A DNA stretch of 64,000 bases, taken from positions 1,436,501 to 1,500,500 of the forward strand of contig NZ_BLLN01000003.1 in the NCBI RefSeq assembly GCF_011170125.1. The letters are read 5' to 3'. The notes under the pieces are model-generated. The model worked only from the letters and a program-made list of their open reading frames with translations, was not told the DNA's origin and did no database searches. This document shows positions 6,623 to 20,510 of the stretch, one piece after another. The position numbers and the translations under genes were made by a program. Every line of letters begins with the position of its first letter. Position 1 is the first letter of the stretch. This stretch comes from Streptomyces diastaticus subsp. diastaticus (GTDB lineage: Bacteria; Actinomycetota; Actinomycetes; Streptomycetales; Streptomycetaceae).

Positions 6623-6728
6623 GGATTCTCCCCGCCGGCTGCTCAATCGTGACGCCTCGGCAACGTAACACCCTGGAGGTCGCCGACGGTGACCGGGCGG
6701 CCGGGCCGGGGAGCCCCGGTGGCGGAGG

Positions 6729-6776
6729 TTGACAGATGCTACCGACCGGTAACAGACTCGGGTTACCGCAAGTAAC
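6729..6776 (+). promoter_or_regulatory. Promoter with TetR operator for the acyl-CoA dehydrogenase gene
   Basis: A perfect -35 box TTGACA (6729-6734) is followed after 18 bp by CAGACT (6753-6758). The palindrome TACCGACCGGTA (6740-6751) fills the spacer, the classic position for repression by a TetR dimer. A second inverted repeat, GTTAC-N5-GTAAC (6762-6776), lies just downstream over the likely transcription start. Both share the TTACCG/CGGTAA theme, so one regulator, probably the divergent TetR gene, could bind both. A GGAGG ribosome site (6783-6787) precedes the ATG at 6794. Confidence 0.7.
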
Positions 6777-6793
6777 AAGCAGCTGGAGGGGTC

Positions 6794-8020
6794 ATGGCCG
6801 AGTTCACCATGGAGCTCAACGACGAGCAGAAAGAGGTGCGGGACTGGCTGCACGGCTTCGCCGCCGACGTGATCCGCCCGGCCGCCGCCGAGTGGGACGA
6901 GCGCGAGGAGACCCCCTGGCCCATCATCCAGGAAGCCGCCAAGGTCGGAATCTACTCCCTCGACTTCTACGCGCAGCAGTACTTCGACCCGACCGGTCTC
7001 GGCATCCCCATGGCGATGGAGGAACTCTTCTGGGGGGACGCGGGCATCGCCCTGTCGATCGTCGGCACCGGCCTCGCCGCCGTCGGCGTCCTCGCCAACG
7101 GCACCGAGGAGCAGATCGGCACCTGGATACCCCAGATGTACGGCGACGTGAACGACGTCAAGGTCGCCGCCTTCTGCTCCTCCGAGCCCGACGCCGGCTC
7201 CGACGTGGCCTCGATGCGCACCCGGGCCGTCTACGACGAGGCCAAGGACGAATGGGTGCTCAACGGCACCAAGACCTGGGCGACCAACGGCGGCATCGCC
7301 AACGTCCACGTGGTCGTCGCCGTGGTCGACTCGGAACTGGGCTCCAAGGGCCACGCCTCCTTCATCGTGCCGCCGAACACCCCCGGCCTCTCCCAGGGGC
7401 AGAAGTTCCAGAAGCACGGCATCCGCGCCTCGCACACCGCCGAGGTCGTCCTGGAGGACGTCCGCGTCCCCGGCTCCTGCCTGCTCGGCGGCAAGGAGAA
7501 GCTCGACGAGCGCCTCGCCCGCGCCCGGGAGCGCGCGAAGAGCGGCGGCGAGCGCGTGAAGAACGCCGCCATGGCCACCTTCGAGGCGTCCCGACCGGCC
7601 GTCGGCGCGATGGCCGTCGGCACGGCCCGCGCCGCCTACGAGGAGGCCCTGGAGTACGCCAAGACCCGCACCCAGTTCGGCCGCCCGATCATCGACAACC
7701 AGGGTGTCGCCTTCCAGCTCGCCGACATGCGGACCTCCGTCGACGCGGCCCGGCTGCTGGTCTGGCGTGCCTCCTGGATGGCGGTCAACGGCAAGCAGTT
7801 CACCGCCGCCGAGGGCTCCATGTCCAAGCTCTTCGCCAGTGAGACGGCGAAGAAGGTCACCGGCCAGGCCATCCAGATCCTCGGCGGCAACGGCTACACC
7901 CGTGAGTACCCGGTGGAGCGAATGCACAGGGATGCGGCCATCTACACCATCTTCGAAGGCACGAGCGAGATCCAGCGCCTGGTCATCGCCCGCACCCTGG
8001 CGGGCATGCCCATCCGCTGA
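6794..8020 (+). CDS. Acyl-CoA dehydrogenase
   Basis: A 408-aa FAD-dependent acyl-CoA dehydrogenase that introduces the alpha,beta double bond into acyl-CoA thioesters. Visible family signatures are [14 protein letters not shown] (FAD/substrate loop), [46 protein letters not shown], and the C-terminal [17 protein letters not shown], in which the glutamate of FEGTSEIQ is at the usual catalytic-base or FAD-contact region. An unusually charged Lys/Arg/Glu-rich insert ([25 protein letters not shown], residues ~234-258) lies in the middle. It is regulated from the operator-bearing promoter upstream and monocistronic, with a strong hairpin after the stop. Confidence 0.93.
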
Positions 8021-8056
8021 GGCCGGCCCCGCAGGGCGGGGCTCCGGGTGGTGGAC

Positions 8057-8097
8057 GCGTCCGCCGTCCTCCGGTACGCCGGGAGGGCGGCGGACGC
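8057..8097. terminator. Long hairpin terminator
   Basis: The left arm 8057-8074 (beginning GCGTCCGCCG) pairs with 8079-8097 through about 17 bp with one bulge and one wobble, closing on TACG. It lies 37 bp past the acyl-CoA dehydrogenase stop and ends that transcript before the alcohol dehydrogenase gene. Confidence 0.65.
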
Positions 8098-8184
8098 CGT
8101 TTCCGGGCAAGCGTGGTCAAGAGGGGCGAACTAGCCTGTTGGACGGCGTGACGCGCCACCCGTCCGCAGCGCAGGGAGCACCTC

Positions 8185-9198
8185 ATGAAGGCAGCCGTTG
8201 TCCGTAGCTTCACCGAGCCGCTCGTGGTGGAGGAGCGGGAGGTGCCCGAGCCCGCGCGGCACCAGGTGCTGGTGCGGATGGAGACCTCCGGGCTCTGCCA
8301 CACCGACATCCACGCCGCACACGGCGACTGGCCGGTCAAGCCCAGCCCGCCGTTCGTCCCCGGACACGAGGGCATCGGGGTGGTGGAGGCCAGGGGCGAC
8401 CAGGTGGACCACATCGGCATCGGCCGACGGGTCGCCATCCCCTGGCTGGCCGAGGCGTGCGGGCACTGCACGTACTGCGTCACCGGCTGGGAGACGCTCT
8501 GCCCGGAGCAGCGCAACAGCGGCTACTCGGTCGACGGCACCCACACCGAGTACGCCCTGGCCCACGGCGACTACGTCGTCCCCGTCCCCGACGGCGTCGA
8601 CCCGCTCGACGCGGCGCCACTGACCTGCGCAGGTGTCACCACGTACAAGGCGGTCAAGGTCTCCGGTGCCCGGCCCGGCAAGCGGGCCCTGGTCTCCGGC
8701 ATCGGCGGGCTCGGCCACCTCGCCCTCCAGTACGCCGGCATCTTCGGTGCCGAGACCATCGCCGTCGACATCACCGACGAGAAGCTGGAGCTGGCCCGCG
8801 AACTCGGCGCCGACCACGTGATCGACGCCCGCACCCAGGACGTGGCCGAGGAGGTCGGGCGGCTCGGCGGGGCCGACGCGGCCATCTCCCTCGCCGTCAG
8901 CAACGACTCCTTCCGCGCCGCCTACGCCTCGCTCAACCGGGGCGGCACCCTCGTCCTGGTCGCGCTGCCGCCCGAGGGCGAACTGTCGGTCCCGGTCTTC
9001 GACACCGTCCTGAACGGCACCACCGTCACCGGCTCCATCGTCGGCACCCGCGAGGACCTCGCGGACGTCTTCCGGCTCCACCGGCTCGGCCGCACCCGCG
9101 TCGTCCGCGAGAGCCGCCGGCTGGAGGACGTCAACACCTCGATCGACGAGGTCCTCGGCGGACGGGTCTCCGCCCGCCTCGTCTTCGACCTGCGCTGA
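8185..9198 (+). CDS. Zinc-dependent alcohol dehydrogenase (AdhP-like)
   Basis: A 337-aa medium-chain dehydrogenase. Catalytic zinc ligands are in GLCHTDIH and PGHEGIG. The structural zinc site is the four-cysteine lobe ACGHCTYCVTGWETLC. The NAD-binding Rossmann loop is SGIGGLGHLALQYA, followed by VDITDEKLELARELGADHVID, in which the acidic residue after the second strand favours NAD over NADP. It most resembles the AdhP/propanol-preferring group that oxidises short primary alcohols. The gene stands alone with hairpins on both sides. Start ATG at 8185 follows GCAGGGAGCACCTC, an adequate ribosome site. Confidence 0.92.
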   Translation: MKAAVVRSFTEPLVVEEREVPEPARHQVLVRMETSGLCHTDIHAAHGDWPVKPSPPFVPGHEGIGVVEARGDQVDHIGIGRRVAIPWLAEACGHCTYCVTGWETLCPEQRNSGYSVDGTHTEYALAHGDYVVPVPDGVDPLDAAPLTCAGVTTYKAVKVSGARPGKRALVSGIGGLGHLALQYAGIFGAETIAVDITDEKLELARELGADHVIDARTQDVAEEVGRLGGADAAISLAVSNDSFRAAYASLNRGGTLVLVALPPEGELSVPVFDTVLNGTTVTGSIVGTREDLADVFRLHRLGRTRVVRESRRLEDVNTSIDEVLGGRVSARLVFDLR

Positions 9199-9226
9199 CC
9201 GGGGCGGCGGCCGGCGCCCGCCCCGG
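9199..9226. terminator. Bidirectional hairpin between convergent genes
   Basis: CCGGGGCGG (9199-9207) pairs perfectly with 9218-9226 around a 10-nt loop. It fills the 39-bp gap between the converging alcohol dehydrogenase and the large membrane protein gene, and can serve both. Confidence 0.5.
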
Positions 9227-9237
9227 CCGGTGCCGGT

Positions 9238-11232
9238 TCAGCGGTAGTCCAGCTCCGCCACCTCGTCCCCGCCCGGCAGCCGGCCGGTCACCCGCGGGTC
9301 CGGCGCACCGCCCGTCCCCAGGGCCTGGGTCCGGCCCCGCTCCCGCTCGTGCCCGGAGACCGTCAGCGCCCGCACCTCACGGCTGCCCGCCGCCAGCGCG
9401 TACCAGCGGCCCGACGGCGCCCGCCACGCGGTGCTCGCCACCAGGTGCCGGCCGAACCGGCCGCACGCGGCGGTGGGGCCGCTCTCCCCGATCAGCCGCA
9501 CCGGCGCCGCCCGCCCGCCTGGCAGCCGCAGATGGACCAGGACCCGCCCCGGCCCCCGCCAGGTACCGATCCGGGTGCACCCCCAGACCGCCCGCCCGGC
9601 CTTCTCCGGCAGGTCCTGCTCGGCGAAGTCCCAGGTGTTCACGGACCGCACCCCGCCGCGCTCCAGGCCGGCCAGGCGGCACCCGATCCGGGCCCACGCC
9701 GCCAGCGCGGCCTTCCCGGTCGCCTCGCGCGGCGACCGGGCGGGGGCCCGCCCACCCGGCGGTGGCGTGTAGGAGAGGTGGGCCGTCGTCAGCTCGCCCA
9801 GGTCGGTGACGAGGAAGGCGTGGTCCTCCGCGATCCGGGACGAGGAACGCAGCCGCACCACCGGCCACCGCTCGCAGGCGGTGCCCGCGACCGGGGGCCC
9901 GGCCACCGCCTCCGTCACGCCGTCCCCGGCGACCCGGAGCTTCTGCCCGGCGCCGCCCGGCCGCAGCAGGTCCCGCGTCCCGGCCTCGCTCACCCACGGG
10001 GCGAGCAGGAACCGCACCCCGCTCTCGGTGCGGCTGACCACCAGCGCCGCGGCCGTCGTCACGTCGGCCCCGTCGGTCCTGGCCACCTCCAGCGAGGGCG
10101 GGGCGGAGCCGTCGAGTGGTTCGGTGTAGCGCGCGACGCGGCCGCCGTCGTGCAGCAGGACCACCGCCGAGCCCGTCACGTCGCCCGCGTAGAGCAGCCG
10201 CGGCGGGCTCGCCGGCGCCTTCACCGGCGTGGCCCGCGAGCGGACGAGCGTCACCTCGGCCGCCTCCGGCGCTCGCCAGGCACGCAGTGCCCGGCCCAGC
10301 AGACGGGCGTCCTCCACGCGGCCGCCACGAGGCGGCCACGCCGTGAAGTCCATCCGGGAGGTGTCCGTCCACTGGCCGGCGTCCGTGCGGGTCAGCGATC
10401 GGGCGCCCAGTGCCGGGGCGCCGTCCCGGGTCCCGGCGACCGGCGCCACCTCGCCCCTCGTACCGCCACCGGCCGGGACGGGCGCCGGTGCGGGGGCCGG
10501 AGAGGCCACCGCCAGCGCGCACGAGGCGGCCACCGCGGCGAGCCCCACCCCGGTCAGCCGCTTGCCGCGGCGGCGGCTCAGCAGATCGGTCGGCCGGGCC
10601 CGCACCTGGCACGGGTCGAACTCGTGGGACGCCGGCAGCACCCCCGCCGACTCGCCGGTCCGGGCCCGCACCCCGGCGGCCTCCGCCAGGGCCGCGTCGG
10701 GCTCCGCCACCCCGGCCGCCGCCAGCAGCGCTGCCACGTCCCGCGCCCCCAACTCCTCCAGGGCCGCCAACGCGAAGGCGGCCCTGGCCGGTGCCGAGAC
10801 CCCCGCCAGCGCCCGGTCCAGCGCCAGTTCCTCCGTACCGCCCGCCCGGGGGAGGAACCGCAGCCCCCACACGACGGGCAGCCCCGGCCGCAGGGCGCGC
10901 GGCGGCGGCAGGCGACGTGGCCAGAGCCGGGGCCGGCGCTCGAAGGAGAGGGCGGCAGACAGGACTCGGCCGCGCACCCAGGCGTAGCCGGCCGGGTCCG
11001 TGCCGCCCTCCGGGACCGGGACCTCGCCGCGTCCGGTGGTCAGGCCGGGCAGGGCCCGCTGCACCACGCCGTGGGCCAGCAGGATCCGCCGGTGGCGGCC
11101 CAGCGCGGGCGGCAGCACCAGATGGGCCAGGCGGACCAGTCGCGCGTAACGCTCGACCACCACCGCCTCGGCCCGGTCGAGCCCGATCCGGGCGGGCGGT
11201 GCGGCGTCGGGACGGTGGGGGAGGGGCGCCAT
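9238..11232 (-). CDS. Membrane-anchored protein with a sigma-factor-like cytoplasmic domain
   Basis: A 664-aa protein not recognised as a named family. Residues ~20-60 (ARIGLDRAEAVVVERYARLVRLAHLVLPP) resemble a weak ECF region 2. Residues ~135-185 (ALDRALAGVSAPARAAFALAALEELGARDVAALLAAAGV) resemble the helix-turn-helix of region 4, where sigma factors read LPxxxRxxxxL...S..EVAxLLG. One transmembrane helix follows (~res 212-230, LTGVGLAAVAASCALAVASP), then an A/P-rich linker and a ~420-residue extracytoplasmic part with Trp and Cys residues, possibly beta-rich. The start ATG at 11232 has AAAGG 12 nt upstream. It is convergent with the alcohol dehydrogenase and divergent from mscR. The sigma likeness is my reading of helix patterns, not a firm homology. 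Confidence 0.6.
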   Translation of the reverse strand: MAPLPHRPDAAPPARIGLDRAEAVVVERYARLVRLAHLVLPPALGRHRRILLAHGVVQRALPGLTTGRGEVPVPEGGTDPAGYAWVRGRVLSAALSFERRPRLWPRRLPPPRALRPGLPVVWGLRFLPRAGGTEELALDRALAGVSAPARAAFALAALEELGARDVAALLAAAGVAEPDAALAEAAGVRARTGESAGVLPASHEFDPCQVRARPTDLLSRRRGKRLTGVGLAAVAASCALAVASPAPAPAPVPAGGGTRGEVAPVAGTRDGAPALGARSLTRTDAGQWTDTSRMDFTAWPPRGGRVEDARLLGRALRAWRAPEAAEVTLVRSRATPVKAPASPPRLLYAGDVTGSAVVLLHDGGRVARYTEPLDGSAPPSLEVARTDGADVTTAAALVVSRTESGVRFLLAPWVSEAGTRDLLRPGGAGQKLRVAGDGVTEAVAGPPVAGTACERWPVVRLRSSSRIAEDHAFLVTDLGELTTAHLSYTPPPGGRAPARSPREATGKAALAAWARIGCRLAGLERGGVRSVNTWDFAEQDLPEKAGRAVWGCTRIGTWRGPGRVLVHLRLPGGRAAPVRLIGESGPTAACGRFGRHLVASTAWRAPSGRWYALAAGSREVRALTVSGHERERGRTQALGTGGAPDPRVTGRLPGGDEVAELDYR

Positions 11233-11541
11233 GGGATCGGGGAGCCTTTCGCTCAACAGGGGGACGGCGGTGGAGCACTCCGTCAAACGAGTGAATCCGG
11301 GGACGGTCACCCGGTCCGCCCGCACCCGCTTCCACCTGCGGGGCGGTGGCCCGCCCGGCCACGACCCGCCCCCGGCCGCTCCCCGCGGCGGGTCCGGCGA
11401 CCCGGCCCGTCCCGCCTCCGCCTCGCGCCCGGCGATCTGTGATCCTGGTGTCAGCGACCGGCGCGCGACGGGCGCGTACCGCCGCGCCGTGTCACCGGAC
11501 GGCGCCACCGCGCCGCACGACGAAGAGGAGAGGCACCAGAG
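11233..11541. other. Divergent intergenic region, no gene
   Basis: A 309-bp region separates the starts of the membrane protein gene and mscR, so both promoters must lie here. I find no good -35/-10 pair. A small GATC-TGT-GATC repeat occurs near 11441. An AGAGGAGAGG ribosome site precedes the mscR ATG. Confidence 0.4.
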
Positions 11542-13445: not shown

Positions 13446-15446
13446 GTGTCCTTCGCCTCGACCCCGTCCTCCGCCGTGCCGAGCCAGTCCCCGCCCGCCG
13501 ACCCGCACATGGTGGTCTGCGGGGACGACGCGCTCGCCCAGCGGCTCGCCGCCGAACTCGCCGACGTCTACCGGGTCCGCGTCGTCCTGCTGACTCCGGC
13601 CGGTTCGGAGAGCCGCAGTCCCGGTCTGCCCGGCGCCGCCCGCCCGCCGGGCCGGGCCTCGTTGCTGCTCGGCCGGGTCTCCTCGGTGATGAGCCGCAAC
13701 GGCGGCCCCGGCAACGGCGCCGGCCCCGCCGCGCCCCCCGCCCCGGAGGCCGCACGGCGGCCGGGCCAGGTCCGGGTGGTGGACACACCGGCTCCGGACG
13801 ACGAGGCGTTCGCGGTCGCCCGCGTGCACACCGCGGAGGCCCTGGCCCTCGTCTACGACGACGACGAGACCAACATCCACGCCGCCCTGCGCGCCCGTCG
13901 CCTCAACCCCCGCCTGCGGCTGGTGATCCGCCTCTACAACCGCAAACTCGGCCAGCACCTCGAAGAACTCCTCGAACAGGCCGCCCACCTCGCCGGCCTG
14001 GAGGACGTCGACGCCGGGGTCACCGTGATGTCGGACGCCGACACCGCCGCGCCCGCCCTCGCCGCGGCCGCCGTCGCCGGGTCGAGCAAGGTCGTCGAGG
14101 CCGACGGCATCCTGCTGCGCGCCGCCGAGCGGGACCCCTCCCTCCCGCGCCGCCCGGGAGACCCGCCCCCGGTCACCCTCGCCCTGCTCTCCGCCACGGT
14201 CAGCGACCCGGCGGGCGCCGAGGGCTCCGACAGTGACGGCGACACGCCCTCCCTGCTCCCGGACGACGCCGACGTGGCCGACTCCCGGAGCCGGGGCACG
14301 GTCGTCCTGGAACGCGTCGGCACCACCGTGCCGCAGCTCCCGCGCCGCCGCCTGCGAGGCCGCGGCGCGCCCCTCGGCTCCCTCTTCTCCCGGCAGCTTC
14401 GTTGGTCGGTCGCGGGGCTGGTGGCCGCTGTCGTCTGCCTGGCGGTGGTCGCCATCGTCACCACCGACGAGCGCCCGCTGCACGCCATGCACATGACCCT
14501 GCTCGACCTGCTGGCGATCAACGAGCCCGCGGTCGAGGACGGGGAGGTGCTGACCCGGAAGGTCCTGCAACTGCTCGCCTCCGTCGTCGGCATGCTGCTC
14601 CTGCCGTTCCTGCTCGCCGCCGTCCTGGAGGCGCTCGGCACCTTCCGCACCGCCACCCACCTGCGCCGTCCGCCGCGTGGCCTCAGCGGCCACGTGGTGC
14701 TGCTCGGTCTCGGCAAGGTCGGCAGCCGGGTGCTCAGCCGCCTGCACGAGATGGAGGTGCCGGTGGTCTGCGTGGAGGAGGACCCGGAGGCCCGGGGCAT
14801 CGCGCTGGCCCGGCGGCTGCGGGTGCCGACCGTCATCGGCGACGTCACCGAGGAAGGCGTACTGGAGGCGGCCAAGATCCACCGGGCCCGCGCGCTGCTC
14901 GCGCTGACCAGCGTCGACTCCACCAACCTGGAGGCCGTGCTCTACGCGCGCGGCGTCAAACAGGACCTGCGGGTGGTGCTGCGCCTCTTCGACGACGCCT
15001 TCGCCACCGCCGTCTACCGCACCCTGCGCGCCGCCCACCCCACCGCCCGCACCCGCAGCCGCAGCGTCTCCACGCTCTCCGCCCCGGCCTTCGCCGTCGC
15101 CATGATGGGACGCCAGATCCTCGGGGCCGTCCCGGTCGAGCGGCGGGTGCTGGTCTTCGCCGCGCTCGATGTCGCGGGGCACCCCGAGTTCGAGGACCGC
15201 ACCGTCGAGGAGGCGTTCCGCCCCGGCTCCTGGCGGGTCGTGGCCCTCGACGCGGCCCGGCCCGACGAGCGCCGCGACCACCTCGGCGCCATGCCGGGAG
15301 AGCAGCGCCCGCCCACCCTGGCCTGGGACGTCCACCCCGGCTACGTCCTGCGGGCCCAGGACCGCGTGGTCCTGGTCGCCACCCGGCGCGGCCTCGGCGA
15401 GCTGCTCGGCCGGCAGGGCCTGACCGACCCGGCCGGTCGGCCCTGA
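13446..15446 (+). CDS. TrkA-N/CASTOR-type ion-channel-like membrane protein
   Basis: A 666-aa protein with two nucleotide-binding-like lobes around a short membrane part. The N-terminal lobe (from HMVVCGDDALAQRLAAELAD) is degenerate and lacks GxGxxG. Two helices follow, WSVAGLVAAVVCLAVVAIVTT and VLQLLASVVGMLLLPFLLAAVLEALG. The second lobe has a proper TrkA-N fold start, GHVVLLGLGKVGSRVLSRLHEMEVPVVCVEED. Such proteins gate ion flux in response to NAD(H) or other nucleotides. The loop between the two helices has no TVGYG filter. I prefer the GTG at 13446, which begins VSFASTPSSAVPSQ; an upstream ATG at 13308 would add 46 Arg/Pro-rich residues. Confidence 0.8.
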   Translation: MSFASTPSSAVPSQSPPADPHMVVCGDDALAQRLAAELADVYRVRVVLLTPAGSESRSPGLPGAARPPGRASLLLGRVSSVMSRNGGPGNGAGPAAPPAPEAARRPGQVRVVDTPAPDDEAFAVARVHTAEALALVYDDDETNIHAALRARRLNPRLRLVIRLYNRKLGQHLEELLEQAAHLAGLEDVDAGVTVMSDADTAAPALAAAAVAGSSKVVEADGILLRAAERDPSLPRRPGDPPPVTLALLSATVSDPAGAEGSDSDGDTPSLLPDDADVADSRSRGTVVLERVGTTVPQLPRRRLRGRGAPLGSLFSRQLRWSVAGLVAAVVCLAVVAIVTTDERPLHAMHMTLLDLLAINEPAVEDGEVLTRKVLQLLASVVGMLLLPFLLAAVLEALGTFRTATHLRRPPRGLSGHVVLLGLGKVGSRVLSRLHEMEVPVVCVEEDPEARGIALARRLRVPTVIGDVTEEGVLEAAKIHRARALLALTSVDSTNLEAVLYARGVKQDLRVVLRLFDDAFATAVYRTLRAAHPTARTRSRSVSTLSAPAFAVAMMGRQILGAVPVERRVLVFAALDVAGHPEFEDRTVEEAFRPGSWRVVALDAARPDERRDHLGAMPGEQRPPTLAWDVHPGYVLRAQDRVVLVATRRGLGELLGRQGLTDPAGRP

Positions 15447-15454
15447 CACCTGGT

Positions 15455-15484
15455 GCGCCGCCCCGGACGCGGCCGGGGCGGCGC
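15455..15484. terminator. Bidirectional hairpin terminator
   Basis: GCGCCGCCCCGG (15455-15466) pairs perfectly with 15473-15484 around a 6-nt loop. It fills the 43-bp gap between the converging TrkA-like and PhnB-like genes. Confidence 0.65.
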
Positions 15485-15489
15485 CCGGC

Positions 15490-15966
15490 TCAGCCGCCCG
15501 CGGCGGCGTCCCGCAGCGCCTGGACGTCGAGCTTCTTCATCTCCAGCATGGCGCGGGTGGCGCGGGTGGCGGCCGCACGGTCCGAGGAGGCCAGCAGTTC
15601 GACCAGCGCACGCGGCACGATCTGCCAGGACAGCCCGTACTTGTCCTTGAGCCAGCCGCACCGCACCTCCTCGCCGCCGTCGGCGGTCAGGGCCTCCCAG
15701 TAGCGGTCGACCTCCTCCTGCGTCTCGCAGTCCACCGAGAGCGAGACCGCCTCGGTGAAGGTGAACTCCGGTCCGCCGTTGATGGCGACGAACTCCTGGC
15801 CGGCGAGCTGGAAGGTGACGGTGACGACGGTGCCCGGCTCACCCGGGCCCGCGTCGGTGAACCGTTCGACGCCCAGGACGCGGGAGTCCTCGAAGACCGA
15901 GGTGTAGAAGGCCGCCGCCTCCTCCGCCTGTCCGTCGAACCACAAATTGGTGGTGATCTTCTGCAT
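15490..15966 (-). CDS. PhnB-like / VOC-fold protein
   Basis: A 158-aa protein of the '3-demethylubiquinone-9 3-methyltransferase' (PF06983) branch of the vicinal-oxygen-chelate fold. Visible features are MQKITTNLWFDGQAEEAAAFYTSVF at the N-terminus, FQLAGQEFVAINGGPEFTFTEAVSL in the middle, and CGWLKDKYGLSWQIVPRAL, all diagnostic of the family. Function is usually unknown despite the methyltransferase name. The ATG at 15966 matches the family start exactly; the open frame extends 23 codons upstream with no similarity. Confidence 0.88.
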   Translation of the reverse strand: MQKITTNLWFDGQAEEAAAFYTSVFEDSRVLGVERFTDAGPGEPGTVVTVTFQLAGQEFVAINGGPEFTFTEAVSLSVDCETQEEVDRYWEALTADGGEEVRCGWLKDKYGLSWQIVPRALVELLASSDRAAATRATRAMLEMKKLDVQALRDAAAGG

Positions 15967-16063
15967 GGCGCGCTCCCGGTGTGTTCGGCCCCTCCCGGCC
16001 CCGGGGCGGGAGGCGGGGCCCGGCGGCCCTCTCACAGGGATGGACCGCGCGGGCCCCGCCTAT

Positions 16064-17332
16064 TCACCGGGGCAGCCGTTCGGCGGACGCCGGCGGCCGG
16101 GCGGTGGTGGTGTGGTGCAGCAGATGGTTGAGCGGCAGGGTGGCGGCGCCCTGGGTGATGGCGTCGGGGCCGAGCGTGGAGAGGGTGATCTCGGTGTGCC
16201 GCCCGGGGTGGTGCAGGGCGTAGCCGCGGGTCCGCTCGCGGATGGTGTCCAGCAGCAGCGGCCCGAGCTGGAGCCCGGCCCAGCCGCCGATGAGGATGCG
16301 CTGCGGCTGGAAGAGGTTGACCAGGTCGGAGAGGCCGGCCGCCAGGTACTCGGCGGTGTCGTCCAGGATCGCCAGCGCCGTCGGGTCCGCCTCGGTGCCC
16401 TCGTCCGCGGGCCGCGCGGCCGCCACCAGCCGGTTGATGCCGTGCTCCTCGGTCGCCTCTTCGGGACCGGGCCCACCCGCCTCGTGCCAGCGCCGCAGGA
16501 TCGCCTGCGCGCCGGTGTACGCCTCCAGGCAGCCCCGTGAGCCGCAACGGCAGGTGCGGCCGCGCACCTGCACGGTCAGGTGGCCGAACTCGGCAGGCGT
16601 GCCGTGGTCGATGCCGTGGATCTGCCCGTCGGTGACGATGCAGGCGCCGACGCCGGAGCCGAAGAGCACGATGGCCGCGTCCGTGGTGCCGCGTCCGCCG
16701 CCGTACCACATCTCGGCCTGGCCGAGCGCCACGGTGCCGTTGCTGATGTGGAAGGCGGTGGCCGGCGGCAGGCCGGTGGCGCCGCGCAGCAACTCCTCCA
16801 GCGGGACGGCGTCCCAGCCGACGGTCTGGCCGTGCACGACGGCACCGCCCGGGGCGCGTTCCACGATGCCGGGCACGCCGACGCCGATGCCGGTGAGCGC
16901 CTCGACGGCGACGCCCGACTCCTCCAGCACGGCGGCGACGGAGCGGGCGGTGTGGGCGACGACGGTCTCGATGTCGCGGGCACCGCCGCTCAGCGGCAGC
17001 TCGCAGCGGGCGAGTTCGGTCATGGCGAGGTCGAACAGCTCGGCGCGGACCCGGGTCTCCCCGATGTCGATGCCGATCAGGTACCCGGCCCTGGGGGCGA
17101 CCCGCAGCAGGGTGCGGGGGCGTCCGCCGTCGGACTCGACGAGCCCGGCCTCCTCGACCAGCCCCTCGGCGGCCAGCTCGGTGACGACGTTGCTGATCGA
17201 CCCCGAGCTGAGTCCGGTCACCGGTCCCAGCGCCTGCCGGCTCATCGGGCCCTGGAAATACAACCGTCGCAGAACGGCGGCGCGGTTGCCGCGCCGCAGG
17301 TCGCGCACGGTCCGTCTGTGGTTCTCGGCCAT
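16064..17332 (-). CDS. ROK-family transcriptional regulator
   Basis: A 422-aa sugar-responsive repressor. An N-terminal winged helix (res ~10-75, NRAAVLRRLYFQGPMSRQALGPVTGLSSGSISNVVTELAAEGLV) is followed by the ROK domain starting LIGIDIGETRVRAELFD. The ROK zinc motif CRCGSRGCLEAY is intact. Where active ROK kinases have NDANAAALGE, this protein reads ISNGTVALGQAE, so the catalytic Asp is absent, as expected for a regulator that only binds sugar. It faces the remains of an ABC sugar transporter and a beta-glucosidase gene, so it probably sensed an oligosaccharide or glucoside. Confidence 0.9.
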   Translation of the reverse strand: MAENHRRTVRDLRRGNRAAVLRRLYFQGPMSRQALGPVTGLSSGSISNVVTELAAEGLVEEAGLVESDGGRPRTLLRVAPRAGYLIGIDIGETRVRAELFDLAMTELARCELPLSGGARDIETVVAHTARSVAAVLEESGVAVEALTGIGVGVPGIVERAPGGAVVHGQTVGWDAVPLEELLRGATGLPPATAFHISNGTVALGQAEMWYGGGRGTTDAAIVLFGSGVGACIVTDGQIHGIDHGTPAEFGHLTVQVRGRTCRCGSRGCLEAYTGAQAILRRWHEAGGPGPEEATEEHGINRLVAAARPADEGTEADPTALAILDDTAEYLAAGLSDLVNLFQPQRILIGGWAGLQLGPLLLDTIRERTRGYALHHPGRHTEITLSTLGPDAITQGAATLPLNHLLHHTTTARPPASAERLPR

Positions 17333-17373
17333 GTGGCTCCTTCCCAGGCCGCAACATACCGGTGTGCGAACCC

Positions 17374-17417
17374 TTGACGCGACCTTCCCCCGAGGTTTAA
17401 CTCACGTCCTAAATTAA
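17374..17417 (+). promoter_or_regulatory. Promoter and AT-rich candidate ROK operator
   Basis: TTGACG (17374-17379) is followed after 17 bp by TTAACT (17397-17402). This forms a plausible promoter reading into the broken transporter gene. The -10 lies within an unusually AT-rich stretch of imperfect symmetry, TTTAA-N11/12-TTAA (17396-17417), the kind of site ROK regulators use. The divergent rok gene starts at 17332, so the site could also control its own synthesis. Confidence 0.5.
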
Positions 17418-17501
17418 GCCGTGAGGTCATAGGGTCCGCGCACGCCTCCGCCCTGGCCGCCACGAGTTGGCATGTTCTCCTTTCTGGAAGGGACTCGCGT
17501 C

Positions 17502-17938
17502 ATGCGCAGATTCAGAGCCGCCTGTACCACCGCCACGGTCACCGCGCCGGCCACCATGGCCGCAGGCTGCGGCGGTGGTACCGGCACCGCCGGCGGCGGC
17601 GCCGGCCGGCCCGGGGAACTCGTCTACCGGGCCTCGAACCAGGGCCCCAGCGCCGAGGCGGACAAGAGGATCCTCACCCCCGGCTGAAGAGGTTCGAGCA
17701 GGAGACCGGGATCAAGGTAAAGCTCGAGGTCGTGCCCTGGTCCGACCTGCTCAACCGCATCCTCGCCGCCGCCACCTCCGGGCAGGGCCCCGACGTCCTC
17801 AACATCGGCAACACCTGGTCCTCCTCGCTCCAGGCCACCGGTGCCCTGCTGCCCTGGGGGCAGCGTCCCGTCGTCGCCGGCTTCCTGCTGCTCCAGCGCC
17901 ACCTGGTCGCCGGACTCACCGCGGGCTCGGTCAAGTGA
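17502..17938 (+). pseudogene. Deletion-fused remnant of a sugar ABC transporter operon (binding protein N-terminus joined to permease C-terminus)
   Basis: From ATG 17502 (GGAAGGG ribosome site) the sequence encodes a lipoprotein signal (MRRFRAACTTATVTAPATMA, lipobox MAAGC), then VYRASNQGPSAEADKRILTP as in solute-binding proteins. A one-base frameshift gives a stop at 17685-17687. In the next frame the binding protein continues LKRFEQETGIKVKLEVVPW...GPDVLNIGNTWSSSLQATGALLPW. At about 17857 it turns abruptly into QRPVVAGFLLLQRHLVAGLTAGSVK and a stop, the standard C-terminus of a MalG-type permease. Most of the binding protein, all of the first permease and nearly all of the second are missing. 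Neither product can work. Confidence 0.88.
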
Positions 17939-19432
<1,494 letters not shown>

Positions 19433-19462
19433 CGGCCGTCGGGGCCCGGGGCGGACCCGGCC

Positions 19463-20380
19463 TCAGGGCCGCCCCAGCTCCCGGCCGATCTTCCGCAACT
19501 GCTCCAGGCGCTGCTCCAGCGTCGGGTGCGAGGCGAAGAGGCGGGCCATGCTCTGCCCCGAGGAGAAGGCCGGCACGAAGTAGAACGCGTTGTACGGCTC
19601 GGCCTCGCGCAGGTCCCGGGTCGGGATGCGGCCCATCTGCCCGGTGATCTTCGTCAACGCGGAGGCCAGCGCAGCGGGCCGTCCGGTCAGCAGTGCCGCG
19701 CCCCGGTCCGCCGACAACTCCCGGTACCGCGAGAGCAGCCGGGTCAGGAGGAAACCGACTGCGTAGACCACGGCGCTGACCAGCGGGATCAGCATGATGA
19801 GCAGCCCGGCCTGGTTGTTGCCGCCGCGTCCGCCGCGGGCCAGGCCGCCCCAGAGGGCCACCCGGGTGATCACCCCGGCCAGCACGCCGAGGAACGAGGC
19901 GATCGTCATGACCGCCACGTCCTTGTGGGCCACGTGGGACATCTCGTGCGCCAGTACGCCGTCCAGTTCCTCGGGCTCCAGGCGGCGCAGCAGGCCCGTC
20001 GTCACGCAGACCATCGACGTCTTCTCGCTGCGCCCGGTGGCGAAGGCGTTCGGCACGTCGCTGTCGGCGATGGCCACCTTCGGCTTCTCCATGTCGGCGA
20101 GGGCGCAGATCCGGTCCACCGCCCCGTGCAGCTCCGGCGCCTGCTCCCGGGTGACCTGCCGCGCCCCCATCCCGTACGCGGCGATGGAGTCACTGAACCA
20201 GAACTGGGCCACGAAGAGGCCGCCGACCAGCAGCACGATCAGCGGCCAGGAGCCGTGCGCCACCGCCAGCAGCACCCCCACCAGGACCACGTACAGCAGC
20301 CCGATGAAGAACATCGTCATGACCATGCGCGCGGTGAGCCCCCGGTCACCCGCGAACCGCGATCCCCGCCGACCAGCCAT
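19463..20380 (-). CDS. htpX: Membrane zinc metalloprotease HtpX
   Basis: A 305-aa M48-family protease for quality control of membrane proteins. Two N-terminal transmembrane helices (MVMTMFFIGLLYVVLVGVLLAVA, WPLIVLLVGGLFVAQFWF) precede the catalytic part. The zinc site is LAHEMSHVAHKD (HExxH), with the third ligand in the helix RELSADRGAALLTG. Two more helices lie between them. I chose ATG 20380 with GAGAGG upstream; a GTG five codons earlier is possible. It is convergent with the beta-glucosidase gene. Confidence 0.92.
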   Translation of the reverse strand: MAGRRGSRFAGDRGLTARMVMTMFFIGLLYVVLVGVLLAVAHGSWPLIVLLVGGLFVAQFWFSDSIAAYGMGARQVTREQAPELHGAVDRICALADMEKPKVAIADSDVPNAFATGRSEKTSMVCVTTGLLRRLEPEELDGVLAHEMSHVAHKDVAVMTIASFLGVLAGVITRVALWGGLARGGRGGNNQAGLLIMLIPLVSAVVYAVGFLLTRLLSRYRELSADRGAALLTGRPAALASALTKITGQMGRIPTRDLREAEPYNAFYFVPAFSSGQSMARLFASHPTLEQRLEQLRKIGRELGRP

Positions 20381-20481
20381 CGGAGCACCTCTCACCGGCT
20401 AACAGCTCTTTCCCTCCCATTCTCCCCTTACCGGCGGCAAACGTGCTGAACCATCCTTCGCCCCCGCCCGTGACGCGAGGC

Positions 20482-20510
20482 CCCCCGCGCCGGCCCGAGC
20501 CGCGCGGGGG
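20482..20510. terminator. Hairpin terminator after the secreted protease gene
   Basis: CCCCCGCGC (20482-20490) pairs perfectly with 20502-20510 around an 11-nt loop, 42 bp past the protease stop in its direction of transcription. Confidence 0.55.

Follow-up and report, generated by a model that had tools for sequence, protein, structure and literature searches.

Among the described systems of Streptomyces, two come closest to the locus considered here. According to the passages of the source used here, the cebR-cebEFG-bglC genes of Streptomyces scabiei form cello-oligosaccharide clusters, in which a binding protein (SBP), two permeases and a GH1 beta-glucosidase lie beside the regulator gene (PMC9953190). 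In Streptomyces griseus, SGR_2423-2427 is presented, in the part of the paper drawn on, as a beta-1,2-glucan cluster, and there too a GH1 is clustered with an ABC importer (PMC12369401).

We have analysed a 64-kb stretch of Streptomyces DNA (hereafter the window), in which a ROK regulator and a GH1 beta-glucosidase flank what is left of an importer. Compared with intact clusters of the ROK-SBP-MalF-MalG-GH1 type, as found in Streptomyces and further actinomycetes, the orthologous pieces stand in the same order, while of the importer region present there the window keeps the ends only. Its regulator is ROK, whereas the S. scabiei clusters, in the passages cited, have CebR. The gene order of the S. 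griseus cluster may equal the ancestral order of the window, though the paper is not consistent in its passages as to the identity of the SBP gene; the GH193 protein SGR_2427 comes next in that cluster, whereas the window has an opposite-strand HtpX-like gene, recognised by eye (PMC12369401). None of the papers listed in the literature searches deals with how this cluster was lost. We consider it almost certain that a Streptomyces cluster of the ROK-SBP-MalF-MalG-GH1 kind has lost its importer here by a deletion of ~2840 bp together with one-base shifts, and that the regulator, the operator-like region and the GH1 gene are intact.

Results

The features of the locus are listed in Table 1. Read directly in the window, a binding-lipoprotein frame runs from ATG at 17503 to the stop TGA at 17685-17687, and a second frame is open from 17687 to a stop at 17936-17938, carrying SBP sequence as far as ...SLQATGALLPW and then the permease end ...VVAGFLLLQRHLVAGLTAGSVK. 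The SBP piece covers the gene of an ABC sugar-binding lipoprotein as far as codon ~120. The other piece is the end of a MalG-type permease, its final ~25 codons, and is 92% identical to residues 288-311 of MalG in an intact sister cluster, G686. Pfam finds SBP_bac_1 in the frame 17687-17935 (3.6e-11). The fragment 17503-17685 alone matches no Pfam or NCBIfam model, and none of these models extends past the SBP part of the fused frame. The sequence-only reading of the locus would have been refuted had a protein search shown the frame 17693-17938 to be a known intact family; the models give an SBP domain and no such family, and together with the G686 match, first to SBP and then to MalG, this bears out the fusion which that reading had described.

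Table 1 Features of the collapsed cluster, in window coordinates
Feature	Position	Strand	Remarks
ROK regulator, 422 aa	16064..17332	-	divergent from cluster; PF00480 2e-40
Promoter/operator-like region	17374..17417	.	TTGACG 17374-17379 and imperfect palindrome TTAACTCACGTCCTAAATTAA 17397-17417
SBP remnant, N-terminal part	17503..17687	+	lipoprotein-type signal and start of mature protein; premature TGA
SBP frameshift	17677..17687	+	C-rich stretch, one base shorter than G686 in-frame allele
SBP remnant continued, other frame	17688..17857	+	to ...SLQATGALLPW; PF01547 3.6e-11; G686 alignment
Deletion junction	17858..17861	+	at most 3 bases assignable to neither side
MalG remnant	17862..17938	+	last ~25 codons and stop; one-base contraction near 17867-17869
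GH1 beta-glucosidase, 461 aa	18047..19432	+	PF00232 4.6e-152; TIGR03356 625.3 bits (cut-off 478.5)

Both flanking genes had been taken as intact, and the profile matches in Table 1 agree with this. The ROK protein has the same length as in G686 (93.1% protein identity), with a ROK domain above the cut-off and MarR-like HTH matches under theirs. The GH1 protein carries NEP at residue 180 and ENG at residue 366, which we take to be the acid/base and nucleophile motifs of GH1. The operator-like region could be aligned in 76 of 101 loci, and ten palindrome positions are identical in all 76; TTGACG and the palindrome are unchanged in G686, and the spacer between them differs. The region lies between the ROK and SBP starts, and ROK would be predicted to bind the palindrome.

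To judge from the alignments, G686 is the closest intact relative found, with flanks 91.5% (17821-20500) and 90.2% (15402-17858) identical to the window. Its order, read gene by gene, is ROK-SBP-MalF-MalG-GH1, with an SBP of 439 aa (SBP_bac_1 1.4e-48), a MalF between SBP and MalG (PF00528 1.9e-19) and a MalG of 311 aa (PF00528 1.5e-17). It came from the family sample of 394 genomes, of which 132 gave a match at E <= 1e-25. Among 306 genomes at E <= 1e-105, only the window's own genome was a closer relative than G686. The start of the G686 SBP gene is 77-79% identical to the best of 392 genomes, G686 excepted, with some matches of 84-91% over at most about half of it.

In the alignment, SBP matches to G686 run to window position 17858 and MalG matches start at 17862. 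The bases between these anchors number 2843 in G686 and 3 in the window, so that the net loss is 2840. The missing part reaches from SBP codon ~120 to MalG codon ~286, so that MalF is gone entirely, along with the remainder of SBP and the greater part of MalG. From the G686 alignment, a single ~2.84 kb deletion would account for this loss, which fits the suggestion that about three genes were removed in one event. The spacer from the MalG remnant to the GH1 gene (17939-18046) is longer than that of G686, with several small insertions in the alignment.

The junction in the window reads CCCTGG, GGG, C, AGCG. In G686, CCCTGG is followed by GAC on the SBP side and by TGGTGAGCG on the MalG side; as this hexamer is shared by both, the G686 match begins six bases left of the junction. 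A check for microhomology at 17850-17865 has therefore a divided outcome: CCCTGG is indeed present at both G686 breakpoints, but the junction is not its simple product, from which it differs by 2-4 bases. Moreover, among 90 other loci, CCCTGG occurs on the SBP side in 39, near the MalG side in 14 and at both in 8. We regard the repeat as weak evidence for microhomology. The junction might have arisen by end joining with little or no homology and 1-3 untemplated bases, or alternatively by pairing at the shared CCCTGG followed by small changes. End joining of the former kind exists in actinomycetes.

Besides the deletion, the comparison with G686 gives two further lesions, so that there are three in all: the SBP frameshift, the deletion and a one-base contraction of the MalG end. 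The frameshift claimed for the N-terminal part of SBP is confirmed by the in-frame G686 allele of the C-rich stretch (Table 1). At this site (17677-17687) SBP reads open in the 91 relatives with a detectable SBP, and among the collected loci the frameshifted string of the window occurs only in own-genome sequences. The MalG remnant measures 77 bases to the end of the stop, against 78 in G686. Because of this second one-base shift, the SBP and permease pieces look as if they were in frame. The switch had been placed near 17857 and within one codon; its position is right, while the one-codon transition is an accident of the second shift.

A wider survey covered 96 loci, namely the best 80 of 583 GTDB loci by GH1 protein (L016-L095) and 16 others (L096-L111), two sets which may overlap in species. 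At least one remnant was matched in 94 of the 96, and both on one strand in 90. In these 90 loci, the extra bases between the pieces relative to the window range from 2629 to 2893 (median 2758), a spacing that, along with the gene-by-gene order in G686, supports the ancestral ROK-SBP-MalF-MalG-GH1 order proposed earlier. Three short contigs (L062, L086, L087) gave the MalG piece only and L093 the SBP piece only; in L094 and L095 neither remnant was matched at the DNA level. Across the 90 loci, DNA identity amounts to 71-82% for the SBP piece and 77-91% for the MalG piece, values that exclude a chance resemblance of the remnants to SBP and MalG. We have also searched 97 loci (the 96 and G686) for an open SBP frame, defined as one tblastn alignment from residue <=55 to >=400 without a stop; of the 91 loci that gave a tblastn match, 90 have such a full-length-type frame. 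In L096 (G005), whose cluster is otherwise orthologous, the SBP alignment ends at residue 304, which may reflect another lesion or a divergent end.

The junction region was matched in 255 of 392 Streptomyces genomes, the own genome included. Among the matches listed in E-value order, the own match alone runs well across the junction, and some other listed Streptomyces matches extend past it by the six bases of the shared CCCTGG. The top GH1 match in the GTDB scan is L016 of Thermoactinospora rubra (6698-11314, 81% identity), above the listed named Streptomyces, and its SBP start is 82% DNA-identical. There may be hints here of whole-cluster transfer between genera.

We have further counted the differences between the window and G686. 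They affect 16 of 245 sites in the mature SBP remnant, 80 of 1380 in GH1 and 92 of 1266 in ROK; in the signal and linker part of SBP the level is higher (17 of 110), and this part varies in intact genes too. The synonymous/non-synonymous counts are 43/37 for GH1, 60/32 for ROK, 7/10 for the SBP signal and linker, 8/8 for the mature SBP remnant and 3/1 for the MalG remnant. Sequence decay of the remnants thus does not appear clearly visible in these counts; the remnants may be too short, or the loss too recent, for relaxed selection to show firmly. As for GH1, the polarised changes (non-synonymous/synonymous) number 3/8 on the branch of the window and 9/4 on that of G686, with 58 unpolarised, which is too few to conclude on relaxed selection. 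For ROK they number 1/4 and 2/4, respectively, with 81 unpolarised.

In the rest of the own genome, the best other matches to the lost genes have only 29% (SBP) and 39% (MalG) identity, and as no close copy was found there, we have rejected a relocation of the transporter. These nearest remaining relatives adjoin each other at G000:C3:436971-440172 and probably belong to another sugar importer. The genome has four GH1 genes; the other three are 51-54% identical to that of the window, and in two cases (L156, L157) the GH1 gene adjoins genes for a LacI regulator, an SBP and two permeases. CebR is of the LacI type, and L156 and L157 are LacI-type clusters of the cebR-cebEFG-bglC layout. A TGGGAGCGCTCCCA box lies ahead of the SBP gene of L157, at L157:4492. 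No TGGGA-N4-TCCCA box occurs in the 64-kb window. With a ROK regulator and no CebR box, the window differs from a CebR-type cellobiose cluster, and cellobiose as the substrate is unsupported on the same two grounds. Since the two LacI-SBP-permease-GH1 clusters remain, growth on cellobiose would not reveal the loss of the importer. That import by this route is lost, as the sequence-only reading held, would follow from the anatomy; its wider bearing is limited by the remaining ABC-GH1 clusters.

Concerning the substrate, the best solved relative of the G686 SBP is Lin1841 (1.6e-33), which the passages at hand call a binder of sophoro-oligosaccharides (PMC12369401). This likeness may serve as a lead and is not an assignment. 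The S. griseus beta-1,2-glucan cluster was considered by way of Lin1841 and not assigned, as the passages of that paper contradict each other on the gene order (PMC12369401) and the matches listed include neither of its GH1 structures, 8KAP and 9U98. Specifically, they are absent from the 60 of 193 window-GH1 matches listed and from the 14 best matches of a Streptomyces microflavus relative, in a library that may not hold them.

Discussion

The same lesions appear in other records. P0001 (68 aa, on a contig of 8389 bases) differs by one residue from the window and has the same ...LLPWGQRP junction; P0017 (80 aa, on a contig of 6,660,302 bases) has ...LLPWGQRP as well and continues in another frame after the junction. 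P0046, with 7 member sequences on 3 contigs, is a truncated 71-aa SBP frame identical to that of the window; its longest contig has 6,616,679 bases against 2,193,358 for the contig of the window, though P0046 may include the own genome, and a further assembly of this strain could be among the sources of P0046 and P0017. Since P0001 and P0017 share the junction and P0046 the truncated SBP frame, the deletion is, as far as these records tell, not private to one assembly. This speaks against an assembly collapse or mis-join that would leave the cluster intact in the organism. Such an artefact could be imagined in a draft of 9 contigs with numerous ABC permease genes (68 PF00528 matches), but the junction recurs in sequences non-identical to the window and on contigs of other sizes, the breakpoints have only 6 bases in common in G686, and the assembly, which is rated 100% complete, does not have the missing genes elsewhere. 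Given these records we hold it very unlikely. Both one-base shifts sit in runs of C, which are prone to sequencing errors; nevertheless, an error seems unlikely for the SBP shift because P0046 has the identical truncated frame, and likewise for the MalG-end shift because P0001 has the form of the window. A fused frame kept by selection as a real small protein family, e.g., a truncated binding protein, deserves equally little credence. P0001 shares the open frame 17687-17938, but the lipoprotein start is cut off by the frameshift and stop, the family models reach no further than the SBP part of the fused frame, and 39 of its 44 matches have SBP Pfam domains, i.e., they are SBP pieces and do not form a family of fused proteins. 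In P0017 the second one-base shift is absent, and the same junction leads into an unrelated C-terminus in another frame; as the in-frame look comes from that shift, a selected fusion protein is unlikely, and the frame of P0017 speaks against a functional one.

The order of events is less settled. The SBP starts of P0047, a record deposited as Actinomadura keratinilytica, and of P0048 are near that of G686, yet both stop at the same ...ILTPG as the window, and P0047 shares with the window the residues ACTT where G686 has ACMT. The transporter might accordingly have been inactivated by the SBP frameshift already in an ancestor common to P0047, and perhaps P0048, so that the deletion removed genes which were dead. 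We give this a real though minority chance: SBP is full length in G686 and in P0049 (439 aa, 98% identical to the G686 SBP, 184 member sequences), and parallel slippage in the C run explains the same facts on P0047 and P0048, which are known here as proteins only. Thus the SBP frameshift may have preceded the deletion, or it may reflect recurrent slippage of the C-rich stretch, where more than one lineage seems to have shifted frame. As full-length (G686, P0049) and frameshifted (P0046, P0047, P0048) forms coexist in the clade, the stretch could even be a contingency-like on/off tract by which populations switch uptake off reversibly before some lineages, such as that of the window, lose it permanently by deletion, but this we judge improbable.

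Overall, we favour the loss of the importer by the ~2.84 kb deletion together with the one-base shifts, and the case is one of ordinary operon decay with an instructive junction. The remnants would be untranslated, or would yield useless peptides. Transcription of the GH1 gene would still start at the ROK-controlled promoter, at a present distance of about 0.65 kb, and the enzyme would act on beta-glucosides entering via other transporters.

Considering that a close intact relative is at hand, the locus offers a clean case of the decay of a catabolic operon, in which uptake was lost while the regulator and the enzyme were kept. It is also a warning to annotators that a fused open frame of this type is not to be read as a gene. 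What is left should be an orphan GH1, probably under ROK control, whose inducer and substrate would now have to come via another importer.
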